IMG/VR virus record: IMGVR_UViG_3300042922_001182
Location: 124,001-188,000 of that record
DNA: 64,000 bases
Strand: one strand, 5' to 3'
Source of the DNA: a virus
The notes beneath the pieces are model-generated. The model was given only the letters and a program-made list of their open reading frames with translations, did no database searches and was not told the origin of the DNA. Positions 2,838 through 50,816 of this stretch are shown in pieces (within the stretch, counting starts at the first letter, position 1; each line of letters begins with the position of its first letter). A program made the translations under genes and the position numbers.

Positions 2838-3680
2838 CTAAGCCCTCCTGATGATCCTCAGCTGCTCGGAGATGAGCTTCCGCTGAGAGTCGGTCTTGGC
2901 TTCCCTGAGCTCCCGCTCAAGCTCTCGGATGATCTCCGCCCTGCGGTGGTGGAAGCTGAGGAGGGTGGTGGCGGCCCACTGGACCTTGCGCTCCGTCTGG
3001 GTGTCCCTCTGGGACTCCGCCATGGCGCCGAGCTTCTTGAGGACGGAGTGCAGCTCCGGCCCGTAGCCGTAGGAGATGGCCATGCTGTCGGCGGACTGCT
3101 CGATCTTGGAGCGTCGCATCTCCTCGACGAAGCCGCTGGAGAGGATGAATGCCAGGGGGATGGCGATCACGGCACCGGCTCCAGGGATGACGGCTAGCGC
3201 GGCCCCGGTCAGCCCCAGTAGGACCAGCTGCGTCGCGAGGTAGGCGGTGGCCCAGTTGCTCTCGCCCTTTAGGTCGGCCTTGTGGCCCACCTCGTGCAGC
3301 AGGACGGCCGTCATCTCCTTGGCGGTGAAAGCGCCGTCCGCAGCGCGGTCGAGGGCCTTCCCGTCGAGGGTGACGACCACCCCGGTCAGCCGGTCGAAGG
3401 TGATGCCCTTCTCCCCGCGAGCCATCCCGTTGGACACCTGCATGATGTCCTCCACCGAAGGCGAGCAGCTCATGAAGAAGAACTTATCGCCCGGAGAGGC
3501 CGGATAGATCTCGACGACGCACTGGATGCCGAAGACCTCCCTCATCAACCCACCAAGCATCTCAAGATCCGAGCTGCAATCGGGGCGATTCGACCTCTTG
3601 CACTTGCCGATGATGTTTGCGAAGCACTGATCGACCGCGTCGAGCCTAGGCTCCTCGTATACCTTCTCCATCAGATACAT
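2838..3680 (-). CDS. M48-like membrane metalloprotease
   Basis: A 280-residue protein with a zincin motif HEVGH (His129-His133) and a likely third ligand in EQSAD (residues 194-198), the HExxH...ExxxD arrangement of M48/HtpX-type peptidases. Two hydrophobic segments (about 145-165 and 166-183) follow the active site, also as in HtpX. The gene begins at an ATG with AGGAGG at ideal spacing and overlaps the terminase translation signal. In a phage this could be a virion-associated protease, a prohead-maturation enzyme or an agent attacking host membrane proteins; context next to terL and capsid genes favours the virion, but this is inference. It starts the minus-strand transcription unit that runs to the window edge. 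Confidence 0.75.
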   Translation of the reverse strand: MYLMEKVYEEPRLDAVDQCFANIIGKCKRSNRPDCSSDLEMLGGLMREVFGIQCVVEIYPASPGDKFFFMSCSPSVEDIMQVSNGMARGEKGITFDRLTGVVVTLDGKALDRAADGAFTAKEMTAVLLHEVGHKADLKGESNWATAYLATQLVLLGLTGAALAVIPGAGAVIAIPLAFILSSGFVEEMRRSKIEQSADSMAISYGYGPELHSVLKKLGAMAESQRDTQTERKVQWAATTLLSFHHRRAEIIRELERELREAKTDSQRKLISEQLRIIRRA

Positions 3681-3718
3681 GTCGGTTCCCTCCTACCGGC
3701 CTCTGGGCCGCGTTATCA

Positions 3719-3764
3719 ACCTGTTAGGCGGACGCCAAACAGGTAACTCTCCGAGCTTCGGAGA
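3719..3764. repeat. two adjacent inverted repeats between divergent genes
   Basis: ACCTGTT (3719-3725) pairs with AACAGGT (3738-3744), with inner GGC/GCC pairs; then TCTCCGA (3748-3754) pairs with TCGGAGA (3758-3764). They lie between the metalloprotease (minus) and the small gene at 3845 (plus). They may be operators or 5' leader hairpins of the minus transcript. Confidence 0.5.
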
Positions 3765-3803
3765 CACGTCTTACAAAAATCGAAACTATTGGCTAAGCGG
3801 ACA

Positions 3804-3811
3804 AATATTAT
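3804..3811. promoter_or_regulatory. AT-rich promoter-like box AATATTAT
   Basis: One of eight boxes of the CATATTAT/TATATTAT type found before genes in this window. It lies 34 bases before the ATG at 3845. Its reverse complement (AAATAATATTT in context) is nearly the same, so it could also serve the minus-strand metalloprotease gene. Confidence 0.5.
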
Positions 3812-3844
3812 TTTGGTGAGCAGATGAAGAAAGGACCTATCATC

Positions 3845-4210
3845 ATGAATCTTAGCACCGCCGCTCGCCTCCTCGACATGGGCCTCCTGGCTCGCTCCAA
3901 GAGGAAGATCGTCGTCAACTCCGAGGACCTGGACAAGGTCATGGAGCTGGCGGCCAAGGTCAACTCACCGGGGGCCCGTATCAGCACCGATGGCCACGAC
4001 GTCACCGTCGAGCACGCCGGTGGCGTGGACACCTACCAGGTGTTCTGGAGAGGCCACAAGCAGCTCCTGGCGTCGGAGTGCCCGGCCTACAAGAAGATCC
4101 TGGACAAACAGGACTTCACGGCCAATCTTGGTCGGCTGTCCGACCTCAACCCGGAAGAGTCTATGATCCTGCCCCTGGATTTCGGTGAATTCGAGGAGCC
4201 CCAGTTCTAA
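3845..4210 (+). CDS. unknown 121-residue protein
   Basis: First gene of a three-gene plus-strand cluster behind an AT-rich promoter-like box. I place the start at ATG 3845 (MNLSTAARLL) because AAAGGA lies 10 bases before it; the in-frame ATG at 3824 has no ribosome site. The protein is small, soluble, mixed charge, with a Val-rich beta-like stretch (residues 45-65) and an acidic C-terminus (FGEFEEPQF). No family recognised. The promoter class and small size suggest an early host-takeover gene, which is inference. Confidence 0.7.
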   Translation: MNLSTAARLLDMGLLARSKRKIVVNSEDLDKVMELAAKVNSPGARISTDGHDVTVEHAGGVDTYQVFWRGHKQLLASECPAYKKILDKQDFTANLGRLSDLNPEESMILPLDFGEFEEPQF

Positions 4211-7740: not shown

Positions 7741-9252
7741 CTAATCGGCGGTCAGCATGTAGAGGCACAGCACCGCCTCGTTGCCCAGCTTGCGGCTCGG
7801 CTCGCCTGCGGAGTCCAGGAGGTTCTTGGTGCTGCGCATGTTCTTCTCTGCCTCCTGGTTGGCCTCCTGGGAGAAGACACCACGCACGGAGACCGTATCG
7901 CCGTCGTAGTCGCCGTTGAGGGCGGCCAGGTAGGCGTTGGACATCTGGAGCGTGTCGACGAAGCCGTTGTCCTCCTCGGGGTAGTCGGGGAAGATCTCCG
8001 GGTAGTCCTCGAACATCCTGTTGCCCAGCTTCTGCACCTTCGTCTTCCTGGTGGAGAGAACGTGGATCTTCGAGGCGTGGATGTTCTGGTGGTGCTCGAC
8101 AGGGTACCGGGTGATGTAGACGTGCTTGTCGGCCGTCACCTTCTTCGCCACGATGTAGAGCAGGTCGATCAGGGTGAAGTCCCTGAGCAGGTCCTCCCTG
8201 TAGAGGGCCAGGGGGTACTCCTTGCCGTCGTCCGTCTTGATCATGATGGGGTCGAAGCGGTTCTCCTCGCTCTTGATGTAGAGCTGGATCATCTTCTTGA
8301 TCTTGGGGAGGGGGAACTGCGACAGAGGGTCCTTGAGCGTGTGGCGCTTGCCCTTCTCGTCCTCGATGAACTGGACGTCCCCGATCTCTGCCTGGAGGAA
8401 CTCCTGGATGCCGTGGACGAAGAAAGGGAAGAACTCCACGCACAGGTGGGACAGCGGGACGCCGGTCCTCTCGAAGCTGACCTTCATCTCCTCCGGCCGT
8501 TCGGCGTTGATCTTCGGGGCGCTGATGACGGCGCGGACGGCGTAGTCGATGCTCTTACCGAGGACGCCCTTCTGGATGATGCCGTTCTTCTTCGCCAGGC
8601 GCTGGGTCAGGTGCTCGAAGATCTCAAGCAGCTGGTCCTGGAGGGCCGCCTCGGTGGCGTGCCCGACGAAGCTGAACCCGCCGCTGGGGGAGGCGATGGT
8701 CAGGGAGAGGTTGAGCAGCCTGGAGTACATGGTGTTGAGCTCGTCAACCGAGATCTGGCCCTTCTGGGCCTTGGAGAGGTTGACGTCCCTGAAGAATGGA
8801 GGGATCACCAACCACTTGCCGACCAGGATCTCATCATCTTTGAGGGAGTTAACCAGGGCACGGCGTTCGTCTCGCAGGGCGCTGCCCGTGCTGGCGAACG
8901 TGAGCTTGCGGATGTTCCTGGTGAGGAAGTCGATACCGGTCTCGCCAGCCTCGTCCTCCACCAGCTCGCCGCCGACGATCTTGAACCTGGAGGTGCCCTC
9001 CAGGGCCTTCCGGAAGTTGCGGTCCATCGACACCATCGCCTTGAAGGCCACGGGGTGGATGAACTTCTTGCCCAGATCGATGTGGCCGAAGATCTCCCGC
9101 CTGTCCCTGCTACCGTAGGGACCGAACATCTCGTAGGAAAGCAGCCCGTCGCTCGTCGGCATGTTCCCCGGGTCGAACAGGATGGGGTTGGTGACCCTGG
9201 GGCACTGGTTGACCTCGACGATCTTGTCGAGAGGATTGATATCTAGCAGCAA
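7741..9252 (-). CDS. RNA polymerase beta' subunit, N-terminal part
   Basis: 503 residues matching the N-terminal part of bacterial beta'. The catalytic loop is NGDYDGD (residues 446-452), with the three Mg-binding aspartates at 448, 450 and 452; Tyr replaces the usual Phe of NADFDGD. GVLGKSIDYAVRAVISAP corresponds to the beta' LLGKRVDYSGRSVI block, and the C-terminal STKNLLDSAGEP...CLYMLTAD matches MSTNNILSPANGEP...GLYYMTRD, after which the protein stops. The rest of beta' is encoded at 21002-22873 on the other strand. Splitting of beta' is known in phiKZ- and AR9-type phage RNAPs. It sits among virion genes, which hints at a virion-packaged enzyme, but this is inference. Confidence 0.93.
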   Translation of the reverse strand: MLLDINPLDKIVEVNQCPRVTNPILFDPGNMPTSDGLLSYEMFGPYGSRDRREIFGHIDLGKKFIHPVAFKAMVSMDRNFRKALEGTSRFKIVGGELVEDEAGETGIDFLTRNIRKLTFASTGSALRDERRALVNSLKDDEILVGKWLVIPPFFRDVNLSKAQKGQISVDELNTMYSRLLNLSLTIASPSGGFSFVGHATEAALQDQLLEIFEHLTQRLAKKNGIIQKGVLGKSIDYAVRAVISAPKINAERPEEMKVSFERTGVPLSHLCVEFFPFFVHGIQEFLQAEIGDVQFIEDEKGKRHTLKDPLSQFPLPKIKKMIQLYIKSEENRFDPIMIKTDDGKEYPLALYREDLLRDFTLIDLLYIVAKKVTADKHVYITRYPVEHHQNIHASKIHVLSTRKTKVQKLGNRMFEDYPEIFPDYPEEDNGFVDTLQMSNAYLAALNGDYDGDTVSVRGVFSQEANQEAEKNMRSTKNLLDSAGEPSRKLGNEAVLCLYMLTAD

Positions 9253-9313
9253 TTCGTTATCCTCCGTCTTTAGTCCCTTTTTTCGCTAATGTTTTGTTGA
9301 GAGACAAAGGTAG

Positions 9314-9342
9314 AGCCCCAACACCTGGTCGGTGTTGGGGCT
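9314..9342 (-). terminator. hairpin terminator after the heptad-repeat gene
   Basis: AGCCCCAACACC (9314-9325) pairs with GGTGTTGGGGCT (9331-9342). It lies just past the stop of the 1540-residue gene (9350) and before RNAP beta'. The following U tract is weak, so some read-through into beta' is possible. Confidence 0.65.
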
Positions 9343-9349
9343 GTTGACC

Positions 9350-12300
9350 TTACATGCTCTCGATCTGGGGGCTGACCCAGACGTCGAGCTGCGTGTTGAT
9401 GGGAGCGAAACGGCGCTTGATCGGGATCTCGGAGAGATCGCCGTAGACGCCGGTGGCATCGCCCTCTAGGTTGGTGGCGTCTCCACTCAGCCCGGAGACG
9501 TCGCCGGTGAGCCCGCCGATGTTGCCGGAGAGGTTCGACACGTCTCCCTTGAGGCCGAAGTCGATCGCGGCGATGACCGCGCCGAGGTCGGCGTTCTTGA
9601 GGACGTTCGCGCCCATCTCGACCAGCTCCGACTGGACGCTCTCGATCAGGGCCTTGACGGCGTTTGAAGCCGTTGCGATCGACTCGATCTCCTGGCGGGT
9701 GCCGTGCGCCACGTCGGCGTTGGCCTGCCGGAAGATCTCGTACGGGGGCTGGTTGGCCGGGACCTGGACCTCCTCCAGTTTGACGAGCGTCCCCGCCTTC
9801 GTCTCGAACCCGCCTAGGCTCCCGGTTGCCACCGACAGCGTCTGCTTGATGGCCTCGACACCGGAGACGATGGCCACGATGATGTTGACGCCGTCGTAGA
9901 CCGAGTTGTAGAGGTCGTCGGCGTTGTCCTCCGTCTCCCAAGCCTTCTTGCGAAGGTCCCTGGCCTCGGTCCGCAGCGCCGCCCTGAGCCTGGTGGCCCT
10001 GGTGAACGCGTCGGAGTCCTTGGTGATGGAGTCCGCCATGCTGAAGGCGGAGTCGCAGGCGGCCCCGATCATCGCGGTGATGGACGCGACCGTGGTGCCT
10101 GGGATGAGCCTGCTCCTGGTCGAATCAGAGGCGACGCCCGCCGTCATGGTGGCGCTCGCAGCCTTGAGGGCCTTGAGCTCCGTGACGGCCAGCGGGACGT
10201 GCTCCCTCAGCTCGGCGATCCTGGTGTCGGTGGCCGCCGACGAGTCGACGGTCGTCATGAGCATCTGGTCGACCCGGGCCATGAGGAGGGTCAGCCTGTC
10301 CACCATCGCCTTCAGCTTCTCCAGGGCATGCGCTGGGGTCTCGATGAACGGGACGAAGACGGAGGAGGACGACTGCACGAAGCCGTTGTAGGTGTTGGCT
10401 TGACCGAGGGCCAGGTTCGAGACCGTCGCCATGGCGTCCAGGGAGTCGCTGATATCCTGCCTCACATCGGCGGATGGCATCAGCGTCTCCGAGGCCTGGA
10501 TGAACGCCTTGGCATCCGCCAGGGCGGTGTTCAGCGCTCCGAAACCAAGCGGCTCCTGAGGGGTTCCGCCGCCCACGATGGCCTGTACCATGGCCTGGGT
10601 CTGGGTCTTGAAGGGAGAGGTGGCCCCTGGTACGATGTCCTTCAGCGTACCGAGGATGTCCTGGGGCCTATTCCCCTGCAGCAGGGAGTCCAGCTCTCCG
10701 ATCTTCTGGGCCGTGAGGGAGAAGGAGTTGGCGATGGCGTTCATCTTCACCGACAGGTTCTCGTCGAACCCGACCCGCACCAGGCTCTCGTCGTGCAGGC
10801 CGAAGGCCGAGACCCTGATCGTGGAGCAGCGGGTCGCTAGCGCCGTGACGGGGCCGTCGATCGTCGTCCTGATGTACGCCAGGGCGCTGGAGTAGAGGGT
10901 GATATCCGAGAGGTTGGAGGTGATGACGCTGACGTTGGACAGCAGCTCCTCGATGGCGCCCTGGGACTGGCCGAAGCCGGTGATCTCCTCTCCTCCTTCG
11001 ACTTCCACGATGTAGGGTGCGACCTTGGATCGGAAGGACGAGTTGAGGGTGTTCAGGGCAGTGCTGACCTGGTTGGAGGAGTTCGTCGCGTCGGTGTGCT
11101 TCGTGTTCTCGTCGGCGGTCAGCGACGAGTTGCTGGTGTAGGCATCCCTGGCCACGGTCGTCACCTGGTCCCCGATCTCGAACACCTTGGTCCTGATCTC
11201 CTTGGAGAACTCCGTGGAGTAGGGGGCCAGGGTGCCGGTGACGGGGGCCTTGTGGGCCTCGATGTAGGTGAGGAGCGAGTCCACCGAGGTCTTGACCGCG
11301 TTGATGGATGCTGAGATCGATGTCCGTGAGGCCGCCTCGTACGGAGAGGTCCCTGCCGTGACCGACGTTCGGACGTGCTCAAGGGTCTCGTAGAGACGGT
11401 AGTCATCCGGCCCTGCCACGGTCCCCGATGCCTTCATGGAGACGGAGATCTCCTCAAGGATGGCGTTGATAGCCTCGTGGAGCTGGAGCATGTCCGCCTG
11501 GCCCACCGAGGGCATCGACGCCTCTCTGGCCAGGTCAGCCAGCTGGAGCGAGAGGCTGCTAGCCGCCTGCGACAGGGAGACCGCGTTCGGGATGCTGGCC
11601 TCGATGACCTCGCTCATGAAGTCGCTTCTCTGTTGCATCGCAGTAGCAAAGAGCGCCAGCGAACCCGTATCCGCACCGCCCCCCGTGCCGGGGGTAAGGA
11701 GCGAATCCGCCTTGGTCTTGAGGTCGTCGAGAAGGGGCGGGTAGGACGCCGCGAGGGAGCGCTTGACCACGAGATAGTCGGAGTTCTCCGTCGCCCCAGC
11801 GGACGTTTCTTGGGCAGCTGCCGCCAGGTTATCGGCGGCCTCCGTGGCAGAGTCCCGGAGCTGTTCCGACACGAGGTCGTCCAGGGTCCCCGGTACTTTT
11901 GCGGCGGCGCTCAAAGCGTTGCAGAGGATAAGCAGCTGAGAGGCTTTCCCCTTGAGCGCCAGAGACGCGTCAACGGCGTTCTGCTCGGTCGGGTAGGGGA
12001 GGGTGGTGTGAGATAGGAAGTTCTCGATTAGAGAAAGACTGCTCTCGCACGCCTGAAGCTGTGTTGTCACCTGGTCGTAGGACGAGGAGATCGCCGCCGT
12101 GTAGGAGTCGATGCCGTCCAGCTCCAGGCCGAAGGCCGTGGAGCGGCTCGCGAGCTCCCCCTGGATGGTGGTAACTGCGGCCTCCTCTACGGCGACTGCG
12201 GCGGTTTCCTCGGCAGTCGCCGCAAGGGGATCGAGCGCCAGCTTGGCCTTGAAGTCGATCACCTTGGTCTTGATCTGGTTGGCGGCCAGGTCCACAGCCG

Positions 12301-13972
12301 AGTTCTTGGCCGCTGCGACCGATGTACTGGAAGCGGCGGTCATCTCGGTGGCGGCCAGGTCCATCGCATCCGCCTTGGAACGGATGTCGGTAGGGTGTCC
12401 GGAGACCACCGCCAGCAGGGACTTCTTATCGTCGTAGGCCGGGCGGATGGCCGCGACCGCATTGACGATGGTCGCGCAGTAGTCGGTGATGGCCTCGATC
12501 GAGGTCGCCACACCGTCCTTGTCGTTCTCCGGTACGGACGCGTAGTTCGTGTCCACCCAATTCTGGACGGGGGTCAGCGCGGTGGTGACCTCGTCGGTGT
12601 GCCCCGACGCGGCCGTCATCGCGGCCTCCGCGTTGGCCTGGTTGAGGGTGGCGCCGGAGGCAGCGGTCGAAAGGGCCGTGATATCCGCTTCGAGGACGGC
12701 GATAGCGGCCAGCAGGTCATCTGCCAGGTCGTTGAAGGTGGCGTTCCCCGGAGTGTTTACCAGCTTGTCCTTGAGGTCTGAGGTCTCGGTGGACGCCTGG
12801 TCGATCGCCTCCCCGACCGAGTTGGCGGCGGCGCTGCAGTACGCCTTTAGGTTGAGCAGGCTGTCGATGGAGGTGGCGAAGGCCCTGGCCTTGGAGGAGA
12901 GCTCCGAGGACTTCTCGGAGACCCCGCTGATGTGAGGCGCCTTCGAATCCTCGTAGAGGCCCGCCTCCGAGATGGTGTCGAGCGCCTCCGTCAGGGTGTC
13001 GACGGCCGACCGGATGGAAGGGACATACGTGTTCAGGTTGTTGGTGGTGTCCACCTCAGAGGCAAGCGACGAAGACAGACCTTGGAGTAATGAGCTGACC
13101 TGCAGCGCCGACGCCCTTGCGATCAGGGCGTCGGCGGATATCTTCTGCGATGGGTTGGTGAGCTTCGCCGTCTCCTGGCGAACGGAGTTGATCGCCCCTG
13201 AGGCGGTCTCGGCCAGGGAGGCGGCGTTGCTGGACATGGACGCCGCAAGCACGGCGGAGTTGCAGGCGTTCAGGAAGGTCATCTCCGCATCGAAGGCGAC
13301 CTGGGACAGGCTACCAGCGATGTCCTTGAAGCTGTCGGCGGCCCCCATGACCGCGTCCATGATGTCCCTGTCGGTCCCGGCCTCGGGCATAGCCATCACC
13401 GCGTCCGCCAGGGCGTTGAACAGAGGGGTACCGAGGCTGGGGAGCTCGACCTTGATGAGGCCGTAGATCCTTGAGCAGTCCCCCTCCAGGGTGGTGATCA
13501 TCCCGGCCAGGCCGGACACGTCTCCGCTGAGCCCGGTGGCGTCCCCCCAGACCTTGGAGACGTCGCCCCTGAGGCCGGACACGTCGCCGCTGAGCATGGC
13601 CACGAGCCCGGAGATGTTGCTGACGTTGCCCCTGATGGCGTTGGTGATGCCGTAGATCCGCGTGCAATCGCCTTCGAGCTTCGTCACGTCCCCGATGAGA
13701 CCGGACACGTCGCCGCTCAGCTTGGAAACGTCGCCAGCGATCTTGGTGATGTCGCCGCTGATGTTGGAGCAGTCGCCGTAGATCATGCCGGTCAGCATGC
13801 CGCGAAGGCCGGAGCAGTCGCCCCTGAGCCCCATGGCGGTCCCCGTGATGTTGGAGCAGTCGCCCCTGAGCTCGAAGATGTTGACCACCAGACCGAGACG
13901 CGGGCCGCTGATGGGCAGCCTGTGCGTCGCGAGATCGTGGTGGTAGAGTCTCTTCTTCTTCCTTACAAGCAT
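9350..13972 (-). CDS. giant protein with terminal GD(V/C)S heptapeptide repeats
   Basis: 1540 residues. Residues about 35-171 consist of about 19 heptads of consensus (L/I)xGD(V/C/A)(S/T)x, nearly all in strict phase; residues 1474-1515 hold six more. Between them lies about 1300 residues of Ala/Ser/Thr/Asp-rich, predicted helical sequence without Gly repeats. Similar Gly-Asp heptads occur in elongated trimeric fibre proteins, so a virion fibre or whisker is the best guess. Repeats at both ends could zip together. Several heptads carry Cys at the same position (GDCS), four times near the N-terminus. Ribosome site GGAGG 9 bases before ATG 13972. It is encoded between RNAP beta' and nucleotide-metabolism genes, not with the tail genes. 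Confidence 0.85.
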   Translation of the reverse strand: MLVRKKKRLYHHDLATHRLPISGPRLGLVVNIFELRGDCSNITGTAMGLRGDCSGLRGMLTGMIYGDCSNISGDITKIAGDVSKLSGDVSGLIGDVTKLEGDCTRIYGITNAIRGNVSNISGLVAMLSGDVSGLRGDVSKVWGDATGLSGDVSGLAGMITTLEGDCSRIYGLIKVELPSLGTPLFNALADAVMAMPEAGTDRDIMDAVMGAADSFKDIAGSLSQVAFDAEMTFLNACNSAVLAASMSSNAASLAETASGAINSVRQETAKLTNPSQKISADALIARASALQVSSLLQGLSSSLASEVDTTNNLNTYVPSIRSAVDTLTEALDTISEAGLYEDSKAPHISGVSEKSSELSSKARAFATSIDSLLNLKAYCSAAANSVGEAIDQASTETSDLKDKLVNTPGNATFNDLADDLLAAIAVLEADITALSTAASGATLNQANAEAAMTAASGHTDEVTTALTPVQNWVDTNYASVPENDKDGVATSIEAITDYCATIVNAVAAIRPAYDDKKSLLAVVSGHPTDIRSKADAMDLAATEMTAASSTSVAAAKNSAVDLAANQIKTKVIDFKAKLALDPLAATAEETAAVAVEEAAVTTIQGELASRSTAFGLELDGIDSYTAAISSSYDQVTTQLQACESSLSLIENFLSHTTLPYPTEQNAVDASLALKGKASQLLILCNALSAAAKVPGTLDDLVSEQLRDSATEAADNLAAAAQETSAGATENSDYLVVKRSLAASYPPLLDDLKTKADSLLTPGTGGGADTGSLALFATAMQQRSDFMSEVIEASIPNAVSLSQAASSLSLQLADLAREASMPSVGQADMLQLHEAINAILEEISVSMKASGTVAGPDDYRLYETLEHVRTSVTAGTSPYEAASRTSISASINAVKTSVDSLLTYIEAHKAPVTGTLAPYSTEFSKEIRTKVFEIGDQVTTVARDAYTSNSSLTADENTKHTDATNSSNQVSTALNTLNSSFRSKVAPYIVEVEGGEEITGFGQSQGAIEELLSNVSVITSNLSDITLYSSALAYIRTTIDGPVTALATRCSTIRVSAFGLHDESLVRVGFDENLSVKMNAIANSFSLTAQKIGELDSLLQGNRPQDILGTLKDIVPGATSPFKTQTQAMVQAIVGGGTPQEPLGFGALNTALADAKAFIQASETLMPSADVRQDISDSLDAMATVSNLALGQANTYNGFVQSSSSVFVPFIETPAHALEKLKAMVDRLTLLMARVDQMLMTTVDSSAATDTRIAELREHVPLAVTELKALKAASATMTAGVASDSTRSRLIPGTTVASITAMIGAACDSAFSMADSITKDSDAFTRATRLRAALRTEARDLRKKAWETEDNADDLYNSVYDGVNIIVAIVSGVEAIKQTLSVATGSLGGFETKAGTLVKLEEVQVPANQPPYEIFRQANADVAHGTRQEIESIATASNAVKALIESVQSELVEMGANVLKNADLGAVIAAIDFGLKGDVSNLSGNIGGLTGDVSGLSGDATNLEGDATGVYGDLSEIPIKRRFAPINTQLDVWVSPQIESM

Positions 13973-15668: not shown

Positions 15669-16432
15669 CTAGAACGTCACGATGTTGCTGTACTGGGAAC
15701 CAGCCGGTGTCTTGATCACCTTGAGGTCCATGCTCTCAAGAACGATGAAGCCGTTCCTGACGTTGTCGGAGGCGATGGTGTCCATGTCGATGAACTGGAT
15801 CAGCCACTCCGGGATGCGGTCGACCGACTTGGGGATGGCCAGGATGGTGAACCCGAACCGCTCCATCTTGGGGCTCTTGAAGACCGCCCTGTGGATGGCC
15901 TCGTACTGCGGGGTGCCGAAGATGGGGGCGAGGTCGCCGATCTTCTCCGCCTTCATCTTGAACAGGAGCACGTCCTCCGGGGCCGACAAGACCGGGAGTC
16001 TCTCCTCCGGGGGCAGCGCCTCCTGGAGGGCGTTCCACACGATGGAGCCGCGCACGGGGGCCTGGGTGTACGGGGCCTTGTACGCGCCGGAGCCGTCGAT
16101 GTACTCGTCGTTCGCGTCGCGGTCGCCGGGGTCGTTGAGGCGACCGGGCACGCCGAAGGTCACCTCGCCACGGGCCAGGCTCTCCTTCACGGACTTCTCG
16201 AACTCGCGGAACTTGCCCAGGACCCCGGACGTGCTCATGTCATCCGAGCCGAGGACGTCGTCCTTGATCAGCTTGGTGAAGAACTGGCGGGTGGTCTTGT
16301 TGACCGTGGTCTTCTTGATCGACAGGCCCTTGATGTCCAGCTTGGGCGGATCGATGATCGTGCCCTCCTGGGCCTTCAGGAGCCCGGCGTACTGCTTCTT
16401 GTTGTTGGTGGTCATCAACCTTGTGTAGAGGA
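15669..16432 (-). CDS. DNA polymerase family B, exon 2 (thumb)
   Basis: Exon 2 of the polymerase. Read alone it looks like a separate 249-residue gene with a TTG/ATG start, but no ribosome site precedes it. Joined to exon 1 it gives MKNEFLYTRLMTTNNKKQY, the conserved palm-thumb linker with the KKxY motif. Downstream, QEG...KLDIKGLSIKK and the RGSIVWNAL segment match the thumb of family B enzymes. The exon begins with TC, completing the codon T|TC (Phe407). The spliced product, complement(join(15669..16432,17034..18252)), is 660 residues and stays in frame. Confidence 0.93.
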
Positions 16433-16625
16433 CTCGGTGTTCACCCGGGGTCGCAGGTCCCGGATCGCCCCTAGGGGCAGCTGCGCGTCTCCGCGCAGGA
16501 CAGACTATATCATCACCCGCTTGGGGTGCCTCCCGTTTGGGGTACCATTGGCTTGTACCCTACGTGCATAAAGCACTAGTCGTTGAACCTTCCCGAAAAA
16601 AGTGAAACTACCCGTCCGTCGACCA

Positions 16626-16633
16626 CATATTCT
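16626..16633 (+). promoter_or_regulatory. AT-rich promoter-like box CATATTCT inside the intron
   Basis: Context CCACATATTCTTTACATG, one mismatch to the CATATTAT box seen before seven other genes. It lies 78 bases before the ATG of the intron-borne ORF on the plus strand and inside the P6a loop of the intron. Confidence 0.5.
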
Positions 16634-16710
16634 TTACATGAGCAAGATAGGATTTAGGGTCCGTACTATCATGCCTACGTCAGCACAGGATCCCTTTAGG
16701 AGGAATAACA

Positions 16711-16896
16711 ATGCTCAGCTCTTTGTTCAACGGTATCGGTGGCGCTGTGGAGTCCATCGGCAACGGCGTGTTCGGCGCGGTAGACGAGATCTTGGACGGC
16801 ACCTGGAAGGCCGGTGAGAGCATCGTCAAGGGCGTCGGCGGTGCGGCCGATGGGGCCTGCAAGGCGGTCGACTCGCTGTTCGGCGACATCGACTAG
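16711..16896 (+). CDS. 61-residue Gly/Ala-rich peptide encoded antisense inside the intron
   Basis: ATG 16711 has an excellent AGGAGG ribosome site (about 16698-16703). The peptide (MLSSLFNGIGGAVESIGNG...) is rich in Gly, Ala, Val and acidic residues and alternates GxVxExI-type blocks, so it may form an amphipathic helix; it has no long hydrophobic segment and no nuclease motif. With the promoter-like box before it and the terminator after it, it forms a complete transcription unit opposite to the polymerase gene. No family recognised. Known intron ORFs in P6 loops are usually sense-strand homing endonucleases; this is neither. Could be an early host-interacting or toxic peptide (inference). 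Confidence 0.75.
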   Translation: MLSSLFNGIGGAVESIGNGVFGAVDEILDGTWKAGESIVKGVGGAADGACKAVDSLFGDID

Positions 16897-16903
16897 TCCA
16901 TAG

Positions 16904-16936
16904 GAGGCGGGGGTAACACCCCGCCTCTCTTTTTTT
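16904..16936 (+). terminator. terminator of the intron-borne cassette
   Basis: GAGGCGGGG (16904-16912) pairs with CCCCGCCTC (16919-16927), followed by TCTTTTTTT (16928-16936). The same T run, read on the minus strand as A7, forms half of intron helix P6a, so the bases serve two structures. Confidence 0.85.
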
Positions 16937-17033
16937 CGGGCTTGGCTGCTGATTACCCGCTTCGGGCTTCCCAGCAATTAGAGAGGTTTGCATACGGGCG
17001 TTGCCACCCGTAGGAGCTAGGCCACGCGGGCCA

Positions 17034-18252
17034 ACTCGTTCTTCATGTTGATGATGGGGCGCTTGTCCTCGGGGATGTTCATGTTCCTGGTCAGGGTGGC
17101 GTAGGTGCTCTCGATGACCCTGGCGAGCAGGTAGATGACGACGTTGACGACGCTCACGCGGTCGACGTCCTCCTTCGTCTTGGCCCCCAGCTCGTCGCGG
17201 CAGAACCGGACGAAGGGGTCGACGTTGATGAAGTTGGAGTCCGTGTCCACCACCAGGACGGCGGCCCTGGGGTCCTGCTCGGCCCGCTGGAAGTGGTCCT
17301 CCGGGATGTGGTCGTGGTACACGAAGTGTGCCAGGTAGCCCCAGAGCTCCTTGAGGTAGGGCAGGACGTCCTCCGCCGGGTGGTCGGCGTTCGTGACCTT
17401 GAGGTCGCTGGCGAACAGGGATTCAAGCACCTTCCTGGCGTTGGCGCACCGGCGCAGGAACTCGTAGAGGTTGTTGCGGAAGAAGACTCGCGCCACCTCG
17501 TAGGGGTCCAGGGAGGACACGGCCTTGAGCAGGATCGCCCGCGCCTCGTCGGAGGGGTGCTTGCGGAACCTGGACAGCAGGTGGCCCATGAGCTCGTCGT
17601 GGGTCGGGGGATTGTCGAGGACCCACACCCTGTCCGCGCTGCGCTGGGACTCCTCCGGCATGCAACGCTCGACGAACAGCAGCGCCTCCGACAGGTCGTT
17701 GAACGGGCAGTTACCGGCGAGGAACTGCTCGAAGGCCATGACCGACGCGGTGATGATCGTGCGACCCGTGTACGTGACGCTGGGGCCGACTCGCGGGTTG
17801 AAGAAGATGCAGTTCTTCTCGCCCGACGCGCCGTAGTAGGAGTTGGCCAGGAGCTTGATCGTCTTCTGGTCGCGGTCGTAGTTGTCGTGGAGGGTGCGGT
17901 CCACGTCGTTGACGTGGGCCAGCATCTTCTTCTTCGCCACCTTGCGGCTCTTCATGAGCCACTCCAGCATGGCCGCGATCAGGTTGATCGAGTTGGAGTG
18001 CTGCTTGTAGGCGGTCCCGTAGGGCGTGAACACCGGCTGGTGCTTGCCCAAGAGGAAGTCCGAGAACTGCAGGACGTCGATCTGCTTGTCCGCCCCGGTC
18101 GTGTCGTTGTTGAAGGAGCACCCCGGCTTCCTCACCCTCTCGTCGACGATCGCGTCGACCTTGGCCCGGATGGCCTCGGGGTCCCTGTCGGGGAACTGGC
18201 GGACCAGGACCTCCATGACCTCTGCCTTGTAGGCCTCAAGAGTTGCTGACAT
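17034..18252 (-). CDS. DNA polymerase family B, exon 1 (fingers and palm)
   Basis: Exon 1, 406 codons plus one base. The fingers helix KKKM...DRDQKTIKLLANSYYG holds motif B (N137-S-Y-Y-G141), and the palm has motif C VVDTDSNF (Asp336, Asp338). It ends at MKNE (403-406), where the intron begins. The unspliced frame adds only LARVA and stops at a TAG within the intron's guide sequence. The protein starts at ATG 18252 with GGGAGGAAACTAAAC before it and has only about 85 residues ahead of the fingers, so the 3'-5' exonuclease and palm motif A (DxxSLYPS) are missing and must be encoded by another gene, not seen here. This segment replicates the phage genome together with the missing part. Confidence 0.93.
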
Positions 18253-18311: not shown

Positions 18312-19184
18312 CTAGAAGTAGAACCGTTGTCCGCCGACGCCGAAGCTGTGGAAGCCGTGGACCTTCGCCACCGCTTGCCTAACGTCGTTCTCGTCCTTGG
18401 TGATGTACGTACCGCAGTCGTACCGCAGGCTGTCGGGGATACCGTCTCCGTAGTGGACCAGCACCGTCTTCGCCCGGACCCACATCGAGAGCTCCCGATG
18501 GAGCTGCCAGAAGTTGGTATGGACGTCGCTCTTACCGGCGTTCGGGCCGACGAACATCTGGCAGTCGTGGAAGACCATGTCCAGGTCCTTGCCAAGGGTG
18601 CGGTACGGGTACTGCTCAAGGAGCATCGGGTGGATCTCCTTGCAGTCGCTGGTCCAGAGCACCCGCTGGTCGATGAGCAGGCCCCAGCTGTCGTGGCCGT
18701 GGACGTGCTTCATCTTCACGGGTTTCAGGTGGATGTTCTCGAACGTCATGGTCGTCTTTTCGTTGAAAAGCGCCACGTCGAAGTAGGTGCTGATGTCCGC
18801 CTTAACGTGATTGTCCTCCTCGTCCTGTATGTCGAGCATGCCTCCAGAGAGGACGCCGCTCCACAGGGTTCCGACCTGGTCCTCCGAGACGAAGAGCCTC
18901 AGCTTGCGGCCCTTGACGAAGTAGTAGTAGAACCCCAGCGTCTCCAGGCCACCGGCGTGGTCGTCGTGGAGGTGGGTGATGTAGACCGCATCGATCTTGT
19001 CCACGGAGCCGTTCTCCATGATCCGACGAACGGTGTCTGGGCTAGCGTCGATGAGCAGGTTGTATTCTTTCCCGTGGTCCCAGTTCTTCCAGGTGAGCAG
19101 GGCGTTGGTGTTTCCGAGTCCGGTCCTCGACATGGCGGAACCCACCCCGATGAGGGTCAGGCAAAACTTCTTCTTGTTGGACAC
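18312..19184 (-). CDS. metallo-beta-lactamase-fold hydrolase
   Basis: 290 residues from a GTG start (19182-19184) behind GAGAAAGGTAGAG. The metal site THLHDDHAGG (His71, His73, Asp75, His76) is intact, with later ligands likely in KHVHGHDSWG and LWTSDC, and MVFHDCQ downstream. The layout (GVGSA...N at the N-terminus, HxHxDH, late His) resembles RNase Z/phosphodiesterase-type members more than lactamases, so RNA 3' processing or cyclic-nucleotide hydrolysis are both possible. It lies between DNA polymerase and an HD nucleotidase in one minus-strand unit. A role in breaking host cyclic-nucleotide defence signals is possible but unproven. Confidence 0.85.
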   Translation of the reverse strand: MSNKKKFCLTLIGVGSAMSRTGLGNTNALLTWKNWDHGKEYNLLIDASPDTVRRIMENGSVDKIDAVYITHLHDDHAGGLETLGFYYYFVKGRKLRLFVSEDQVGTLWSGVLSGGMLDIQDEEDNHVKADISTYFDVALFNEKTTMTFENIHLKPVKMKHVHGHDSWGLLIDQRVLWTSDCKEIHPMLLEQYPYRTLGKDLDMVFHDCQMFVGPNAGKSDVHTNFWQLHRELSMWVRAKTVLVHYGDGIPDSLRYDCGTYITKDENDVRQAVAKVHGFHSFGVGGQRFYF

Positions 19185-19200: not shown

Positions 19201-19833
19201 CTAGCTGCTAAGCCCGCCGTGCAGCCGCACGGCCATCTGCTCGTCGATCTCCGCGACGACGGACTGGAGTAGGACGGACTTGTTGTACACCCAGCTCTCC
19301 CGGACGAAGCGGAGGGCCTCCCACGGCAGGCCCCTGGCCGCCTCGTTGCCGGAGGACCACTCCTGGTGGCACCACAGGGCGAACTCCAGGCGGTCGGCCA
19401 CCTTCACGATGTCCGCGATGGCGTCGGTCTTGTGCTCCGACGAGAAGGTCCACACCTGACGGATGAGCTTCTCGATGCGGTCCCTGACCTCCACGGGGAC
19501 GAACCTGCGGAAGCCGTCCCGGATCAGGCTGGCGACGTAGCCCTCGTGGGCCCTGTCGGCTGCCCCGGCGATGGCCTTCTTCAGGTTCTCGTCGCCGTTC
19601 TTGAAGGGGCCGCTGACGTCCCCCGTGATGGCCTCGTCGTAATCGTGGAGGATGGCCGCCCTGAGCACCTTGCCGGAGTCCACGTCGTTGATGTCCATGT
19701 CCTCGACGAGCATCATGCAGATGAACGCCACCTGGAACGAGTGGGCGGAGACCGATTGCGGTTGGTTGACCCGCAGCCCCGGGGCCCGCCAGGTGTAGTC
19801 CAGCTTGCGGGCGAGCTCGAATGCCTTGATCAT
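19201..19833 (-). CDS. YfbR-like HD-domain 5'-deoxynucleotidase
   Basis: 210 residues from ATG 19833, chosen because CGAGGAGA precedes it at proper spacing. HD-domain metal ligands are visible: SVSAHSFQ (His31), LHDYDEAITGD (His63, Asp64, Glu67), and KVADRLEF later. The HDxxExxTGD block is the mark of the YfbR/OxsA family, which removes phosphate from dNMPs; the phage dATP hydrolase DatZ belongs to the same wider group. It heads the minus-strand operon leading into the MBL protein and DNA polymerase, so it probably reshapes the deoxynucleotide pool during phage replication. Which nucleotide is attacked cannot be told. Confidence 0.85.
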   Translation of the reverse strand: MIKAFELARKLDYTWRAPGLRVNQPQSVSAHSFQVAFICMMLVEDMDINDVDSGKVLRAAILHDYDEAITGDVSGPFKNGDENLKKAIAGAADRAHEGYVASLIRDGFRRFVPVEVRDRIEKLIRQVWTFSSEHKTDAIADIVKVADRLEFALWCHQEWSSGNEAARGLPWEALRFVRESWVYNKSVLLQSVVAEIDEQMAVRLHGGLSS

Positions 19834-20007
19834 TGATGAATCTCCTCGGGCCATCTCCAGGCCCCCTTGCATCGGAGGGTTCCGGCTGGCCCTACGTGGT
19901 TAAACGCGGCGGGCCGCCAGGCGCTCCCAGCCGCGAAACATTCAATTAGGCACGGATCCTATGCCAAGGATAAAACTGATAACACCTCTAGAGGAAGGAG
20001 ACACAAC

Positions 20008-50704: not shown

Positions 50705-50816
50705 GTCGTATCTCCCTATCACTTTCCGGAGCTATTCACATCTAAATGTTCCGGGGAGATTTTCCGCCGCAGGACCCAGGAGAGAATGGCGTCCAGGGGA
50801 TTCCGAGGTTCGTCCA

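Follow-up and report, generated by a model that had tools for sequence, protein, structure and literature searches.

A group IA2 intron in the family B DNA polymerase gene of a jumbo phage related to AR9/PBS1, with a probable antisense transcription unit in its P6a loop

A polymerase gene in two pieces

Why does a phage DNA polymerase gene fall apart into two open reading frames, and what does the DNA between them encode? The gene lies in a 64-kb window, i.e. the whole stretch that was analysed, which covers positions 124001-188000 of a 238,984-bp IMG/VR virus record; all coordinates below are those of the window unless a contig is named. The source virus is an AR9/PBS1-related jumbo phage, and relatives of the polymerase are found in AR9/PBS1 and in Staphylococcus, Listeria and phiR1-37 jumbo phages. 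As had been predicted for an unspliced reading, the polymerase appears as two ORFs on the minus strand, 18252-17017 (with a TAG at 17019-17017) and 16430-15669. The proposed arrangement is as follows:

17034..18252, minus strand: 5' exon of a divergent family B DNA polymerase (PF20286/PF00136), with the DTDSN motif C, ending in ...MKNE plus T
16433..17033, minus strand: group IA2 intron of 601 nt (RF00028 and hand-placed helices)
15669..16432, minus strand: 3' exon, starting with TC (which completes F) and continuing LYTRLMTTNNKKQY...

Both exons match PF20286 (divDNApol) in order and on successive parts of the profile, the 5' exon with 91.6 bits (and 55.3 bits for DNA_pol_B) and the 3' exon with 52.7 bits; the latter was also aligned with five phage polymerases. 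Joining 17034 to 16432 gives a single open frame of 660 aa, which aligns collinearly and end-to-end with AR9 g152 at 37% identity and reads MKNE-F-LYTRLM across the junction. When the 3' exon was used as a single-sequence query against viral contigs, no match was confirmed; an alignment query recovered 46 loci. The junction motif, mostly MK[NS]E[FY], is contiguous in about 30 distinct relatives that are uninterrupted here, in agreement with the original prediction that excision restores a conserved motif in frame. The exceptions are L026, which has an in-frame stop, and a few distant relatives that read LKNEF or FKNEF.

The insertion splits the F codon that comes after MKNE, behind its first base. 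The intron had been placed exactly between MKNE and KKQY; more precisely, it sits inside this F codon, ten residues before KKQY. The same protein is encoded when both splice sites are moved by one T, and the boundaries 17033-16433 were chosen because of the U.G rule and the terminal G.

Architecture of the intron

The covariance search that had been proposed as a check of the intron produced a match to Rfam RF00028 (Intron_gpI) at 17043-16481 on the minus strand, with 57.3 bits (gathering 50) and an E-value of 6.5e-12 over the full model (1-253). No other RF00028 match was reported for the 238,984-bp record. This is no proof of a single intron, because the initial survey of related records overlooked an intron in the phiR1-37 polymerase gene that was later detected. 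The helices P1, P3, P4, P5, P6/P6a, P7, P7.1, P7.2, P8, P9, P9.1 and P9.2 could all be placed by hand:

17014..17037, minus strand: P1, GAGU-UGG (17037-17031, the hyphen marking the splice site) with CUAGCUC (17020-17014)
16986-16981 (5' strand) and 16534-16529 (3' strand), minus strand: P3
16977-16972/16951-16946, minus strand: P4, enclosing P5 (P4-P5 span 16946..16977)
16966-16963/16959-16956, minus strand: P5, inside P4
16592..16940, minus strand: P6a stem, CCCGAAAAAA (16940-16931) with UUUUUUCGGG (16601-16592), 10/10 pairs, closing a 329-nt loop
16581-16577/16507-16503, minus strand: P7
16576-16573/16567-16564, minus strand: P7.1, GUGC/GCAC
16560-16555/16545-16540, minus strand: P7.2, GGGUAC/GUACCC
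16528-16524/16518-16514, minus strand: P8
16498-16493/16486-16481, minus strand: P9; 16433..16498 also holds P9.1 and P9.2

The 5' splice site follows U17034, in the U17034.G17017 pair of P1, and the last base of the intron is G16433. The TAG that ends the upstream ORF overlaps the 3' strand of P1 and supplies the G of the U.G pair; it thus lies in the guide sequence, as had been noticed at the outset. A convincing P10, pairing the guide with the 3' exon, was not found, one pair being placeable by eye; P10 is not evident in every group I intron. With a core that scores above the curated value, a U.G pair and terminal G at its ends and a frame that is restored by excision, 17033-16433 is, as a sequence feature, almost certainly a group I intron.

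The linkage of P7.1 to P7.2 by GUA (16563-16561), a hallmark of subgroup IA2 (PMC3428280), assigns the intron to that subgroup. IA2 introns with the same P7.1-GUA-P7.2 arrangement also interrupt DNA polymerase genes of Bacillus phages and of Pf-WMP3, although the polymerase and the insertion site are different ones, and the Pf-WMP3 intron carries a sense-strand HNH endonuclease gene that begins in P6a (PMC3428280). The present intron is ordinary in kind, and it is the probable antisense unit described below that raises its interest.

Introns in related polymerase genes

Group I introns occupy the same codon in the same phase in Yersinia phage phiR1-37 (RF00028, 63.4 bits) and in the IMG/VR contig L041 (68.5 bits). 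The site is therefore not new, having been occupied already in a sequenced phage, which the original prediction overlooked. The phiR1-37 intron shares the gene family, the U.G pair at the 5' splice site and the terminal G, but it measures about 354 nt and has a small P6 hairpin, and the antisense gene cassette was not seen there. In L041 the U.G pair is likewise present, whereas the intron is about 205 nt long and has no P6 loop that bears an ORF. Among the three introns the sequences of P5, P6a, P8 and P9 differ while the pairing is kept, as judged from hand-placed helices in these three sequences. With the present one, at least three phage sequences that are distantly related thus have a group I intron at this polymerase site. 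Together with the covariance match, the exact in-frame junction and the contiguous relatives, the two same-site introns uphold the claim of a group I intron in the polymerase gene. Architecture, junction and site conservation are all legible in the DNA, and from them we infer that splicing takes place in cells.

These observations also bear on whether the two ORFs could instead be two subunits of a split polymerase, made without any splicing. A TTG at 16418 could serve as the start of the 3' ORF, and separate polymerase pieces are annotated in related phage records. Starting at that TTG would however lose conserved residues upstream of it, and no strong Shine-Dalgarno sequence lies ahead of it. 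Moreover, a full catalytic group I intron stands exactly between the halves, its removal brings the parts of a conserved motif together in frame, and the interruption at the same site in phiR1-37 is a group I intron as well, all of which makes two subunits very improbable. With the intron recognised, the annotation of this essential gene can be put right.

In other family members the interruption has a different place: L003, L005, L034/L046 and L045 are split at the DTDS motif, and L013 between LLA and NSxYG. Group I signatures could be read by eye at these interruptions, whereas Rfam gave weak pieces in L003 and otherwise no match there. The L013 interruption contains a sense-strand BRO-N protein gene (3092-3940 of that contig; PF02498, 83.1 bits), and further along (8882-9805) the same contig has three consecutive group I intron matches inside 1 kb (66.6-75.2 bits). 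In L001 (7908-8081), within AR9 g145, RF02004 gave a match to a group II intron with 80.7 bits, near an ORF annotated as 'group I intron VSR'.

A probable antisense unit in the P6a loop

About half of the intron is taken up by an apparently self-contained gene cassette on the opposite strand, which the original prediction overlooked:

16625..16640, plus strand: early-promoter-like ACATATTCT-N6-G, starting 86 nt before the start codon of the antisense ORF
16698..16703, plus strand: Shine-Dalgarno sequence AGGAGG, 7 nt ahead of the ATG
16711..16896, plus strand: antisense ORF of 61 codons (P0001), within the P6a loop
16903..16936, plus strand: intrinsic terminator just past the stop codon (scan match and folding energy)

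Promoter and codon statistics were computed on the 64-kb window. The antisense ORF has a codon score of 0.48; the median among ORFs of at least 200 aa is 0.46, and 0 of 121 spurious ORFs score as high as the antisense ORF. In dinucleotide-shuffled inserts an ATG ORF of such length with a Shine-Dalgarno sequence arose in 0.6%, and the codon score was reached in 0 of 3000. The terminator hairpin folds with -22.9 kcal/mol (z -5.57, 0/200 shuffles) and is followed by seven T; this T-run (16930-16936) overlaps the P6a arm. Two sense-strand ORFs of the intron, 16680-16889 and 16696-16977, were rejected as genes on account of their poor codon scores.

The promoter-like element resembles sites in the window built on ATATTAT-N6-G, themselves similar to the early promoter consensus of AR9, AAATATATATTAT-N6-G (PMC5312081). 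Its 9-mer and the site at 50816 differ at a single base. Nine sites on the two strands of the window score equally well or better, and in the shuffled leader P is about 0.013, a value that serves as a guide only, the motif having been derived from six hand-chosen sites. ACATATTCT contains a nonconsensus C, and a single substitution can affect early transcription in AR9 (PMC5312081). No late promoter (AACA-N6-TA/G) was found upstream of the antisense ORF on the plus strand. Elsewhere in the window, candidate early promoters (ATATTAT-N6-G) occur at 3803(+), 20532(+), 32846(+), 50816(+), 57765(+) and 59414(-), and there are several intergenic AACA-N6-TA sites like the late promoters of AR9.

AlphaFold2, run on the single sequence, gave the 61-aa protein as one helix (residues 2-58, mean pLDDT 82), and its helical periodicity and hydrophobic moment were reached by 0 of 5000 shuffles, so that the product is predicted to be an amphipathic helix. 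Searches of viral and genome contigs, phages, the genome itself, 18 related records, Pfam and PHROGs returned only weak, compositional matches: there was none in Pfam, and the PHROG matches, to tape-measure proteins, are weak and look compositional. Since the ORF has no detectable homologue, purifying selection on it cannot be shown. It is the only ORF of the intron with a coding signal, and its product does not resemble a homing endonuclease. As to its role, a small early protein that is membrane-active or forms a coiled coil would be a guess.

The intron could be real while the plus-strand ORF is either a frame that arose by chance in a large extension of P6 or what is left of a former, decayed intron ORF. 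Such a reading would fit the lack of a homologue in any collection searched, the imperfect promoter, and the fact that an ATG ORF of at least 61 codons appears in 21% of the shuffled inserts. It would leave unexplained why Shine-Dalgarno sequence, codon usage, terminator, promoter-like site and helical periodicity concur, and the other window ORFs of similar size with a strong Shine-Dalgarno sequence and an ATG have low codon scores unless they are gene-like. We therefore consider a chance or decayed frame unlikely, and the antisense transcription unit in the P6a loop probably real; from the signals listed we infer that its promoter is used and its ORF translated.

A proposed model: a ribozyme and a gene on opposite strands

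It appears that the locus can be described by a single model. Minus-strand transcription of the polymerase gene would yield an RNA from which the 601-nt IA2 intron, once folded, excises itself by the usual two guanosine-initiated transesterifications, restoring one family B polymerase of 660 residues. The P6a loop would hold an independent plus-strand gene, equipped with an early-type promoter, a ribosome-binding site and a terminator of its own and expressed as a small amphipathic-helix protein. On the antisense path the terminator would sit just before the catalytic core, its T-run doubling as P6a; since the T-run is part of the P6a arm, antisense transcription should end before the ribozyme core. 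The antisense RNA would then be limited to the P6 loop, so that no pairing with the ribozyme and no blocking of it would be expected. We give this combination of a self-splicing intron and an expressed antisense gene a probability of roughly 70%.

Alternatively, the plus-strand unit might produce an antisense RNA that tunes expression or splicing of the polymerase, the ORF being incidental. Antisense RNAs have been reported in phiR1-37 (PMC12197685) and AR9 (PMC5312081). The predicted RNA (16640 to about 16936), however, pairs with the P6 loop only and ends before the core, and the coding signals in the ORF are strong, which makes a purely regulatory RNA even less likely than a chance or decayed frame.

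A close parallel to the antisense gene of our model is found in AR9, where an intron of the late gene g189 contains the early HNH gene g190 together with a promoter for it (PMC5312081). Gene g190 is likewise intron-borne in a related phage, but it is on the strand of its host gene and encodes a homing endonuclease. The six annotated intron-borne ORFs of AR9 that were examined (g122, g146, g147, g190, g206 and g207) are on the host-gene strand, and for 20 covariance-model matches in related phage records the overlapping ORFs with a Shine-Dalgarno sequence are on the strand of the match, locus strand being deduced from the contig ranges. A gene opposite the ribozyme strand and located in a peripheral helix is known from nuclear rDNA group I introns, as in Didymium; these are eukaryotic, and their antisense gene encodes a His-Cys homing endonuclease, is located in P9.2 and has a proposed RNA polymerase II promoter (PMC9548176). 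Among the open-licence papers searched, no phage group I intron with an antisense gene was found, which is weak evidence.

We tentatively suggest, at slightly less than even odds, that this is a phage group I intron in which an autonomous antisense early gene replaces the homing endonuclease, with its terminator fused to P6a and both strands encoding working, mutually insulated RNAs. Should the antisense unit prove real, the strand opposite a phage group I intron would bear a non-endonuclease gene, with terminator and ribozyme helix sharing bases. The locus would then be a testable case of a ribozyme that coexists with an overlapping antisense gene, a question already posed for eukaryotic rDNA introns (PMC9548176).

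Neighbours of the polymerase gene

Directly upstream of the polymerase gene, 18312-19184 (minus strand) encodes a metallo-beta-lactamase-fold protein with a match to Anti-Pycsar Apyc1 (PF23023, 75.3 bits). Beside the polymerase cluster, at 19201-19872 (minus strand), a YfbR-like 5'-deoxynucleotidase is encoded (PF12917, 76.6 bits); a 5'(3')-deoxyribonucleotidase gene adjoins the polymerase gene of AR9. Finally, 9350-13972 (minus strand) encodes a protein of 1540 aa, the N-terminal part of which contains many short repeats of the GDVS/GDCS type.
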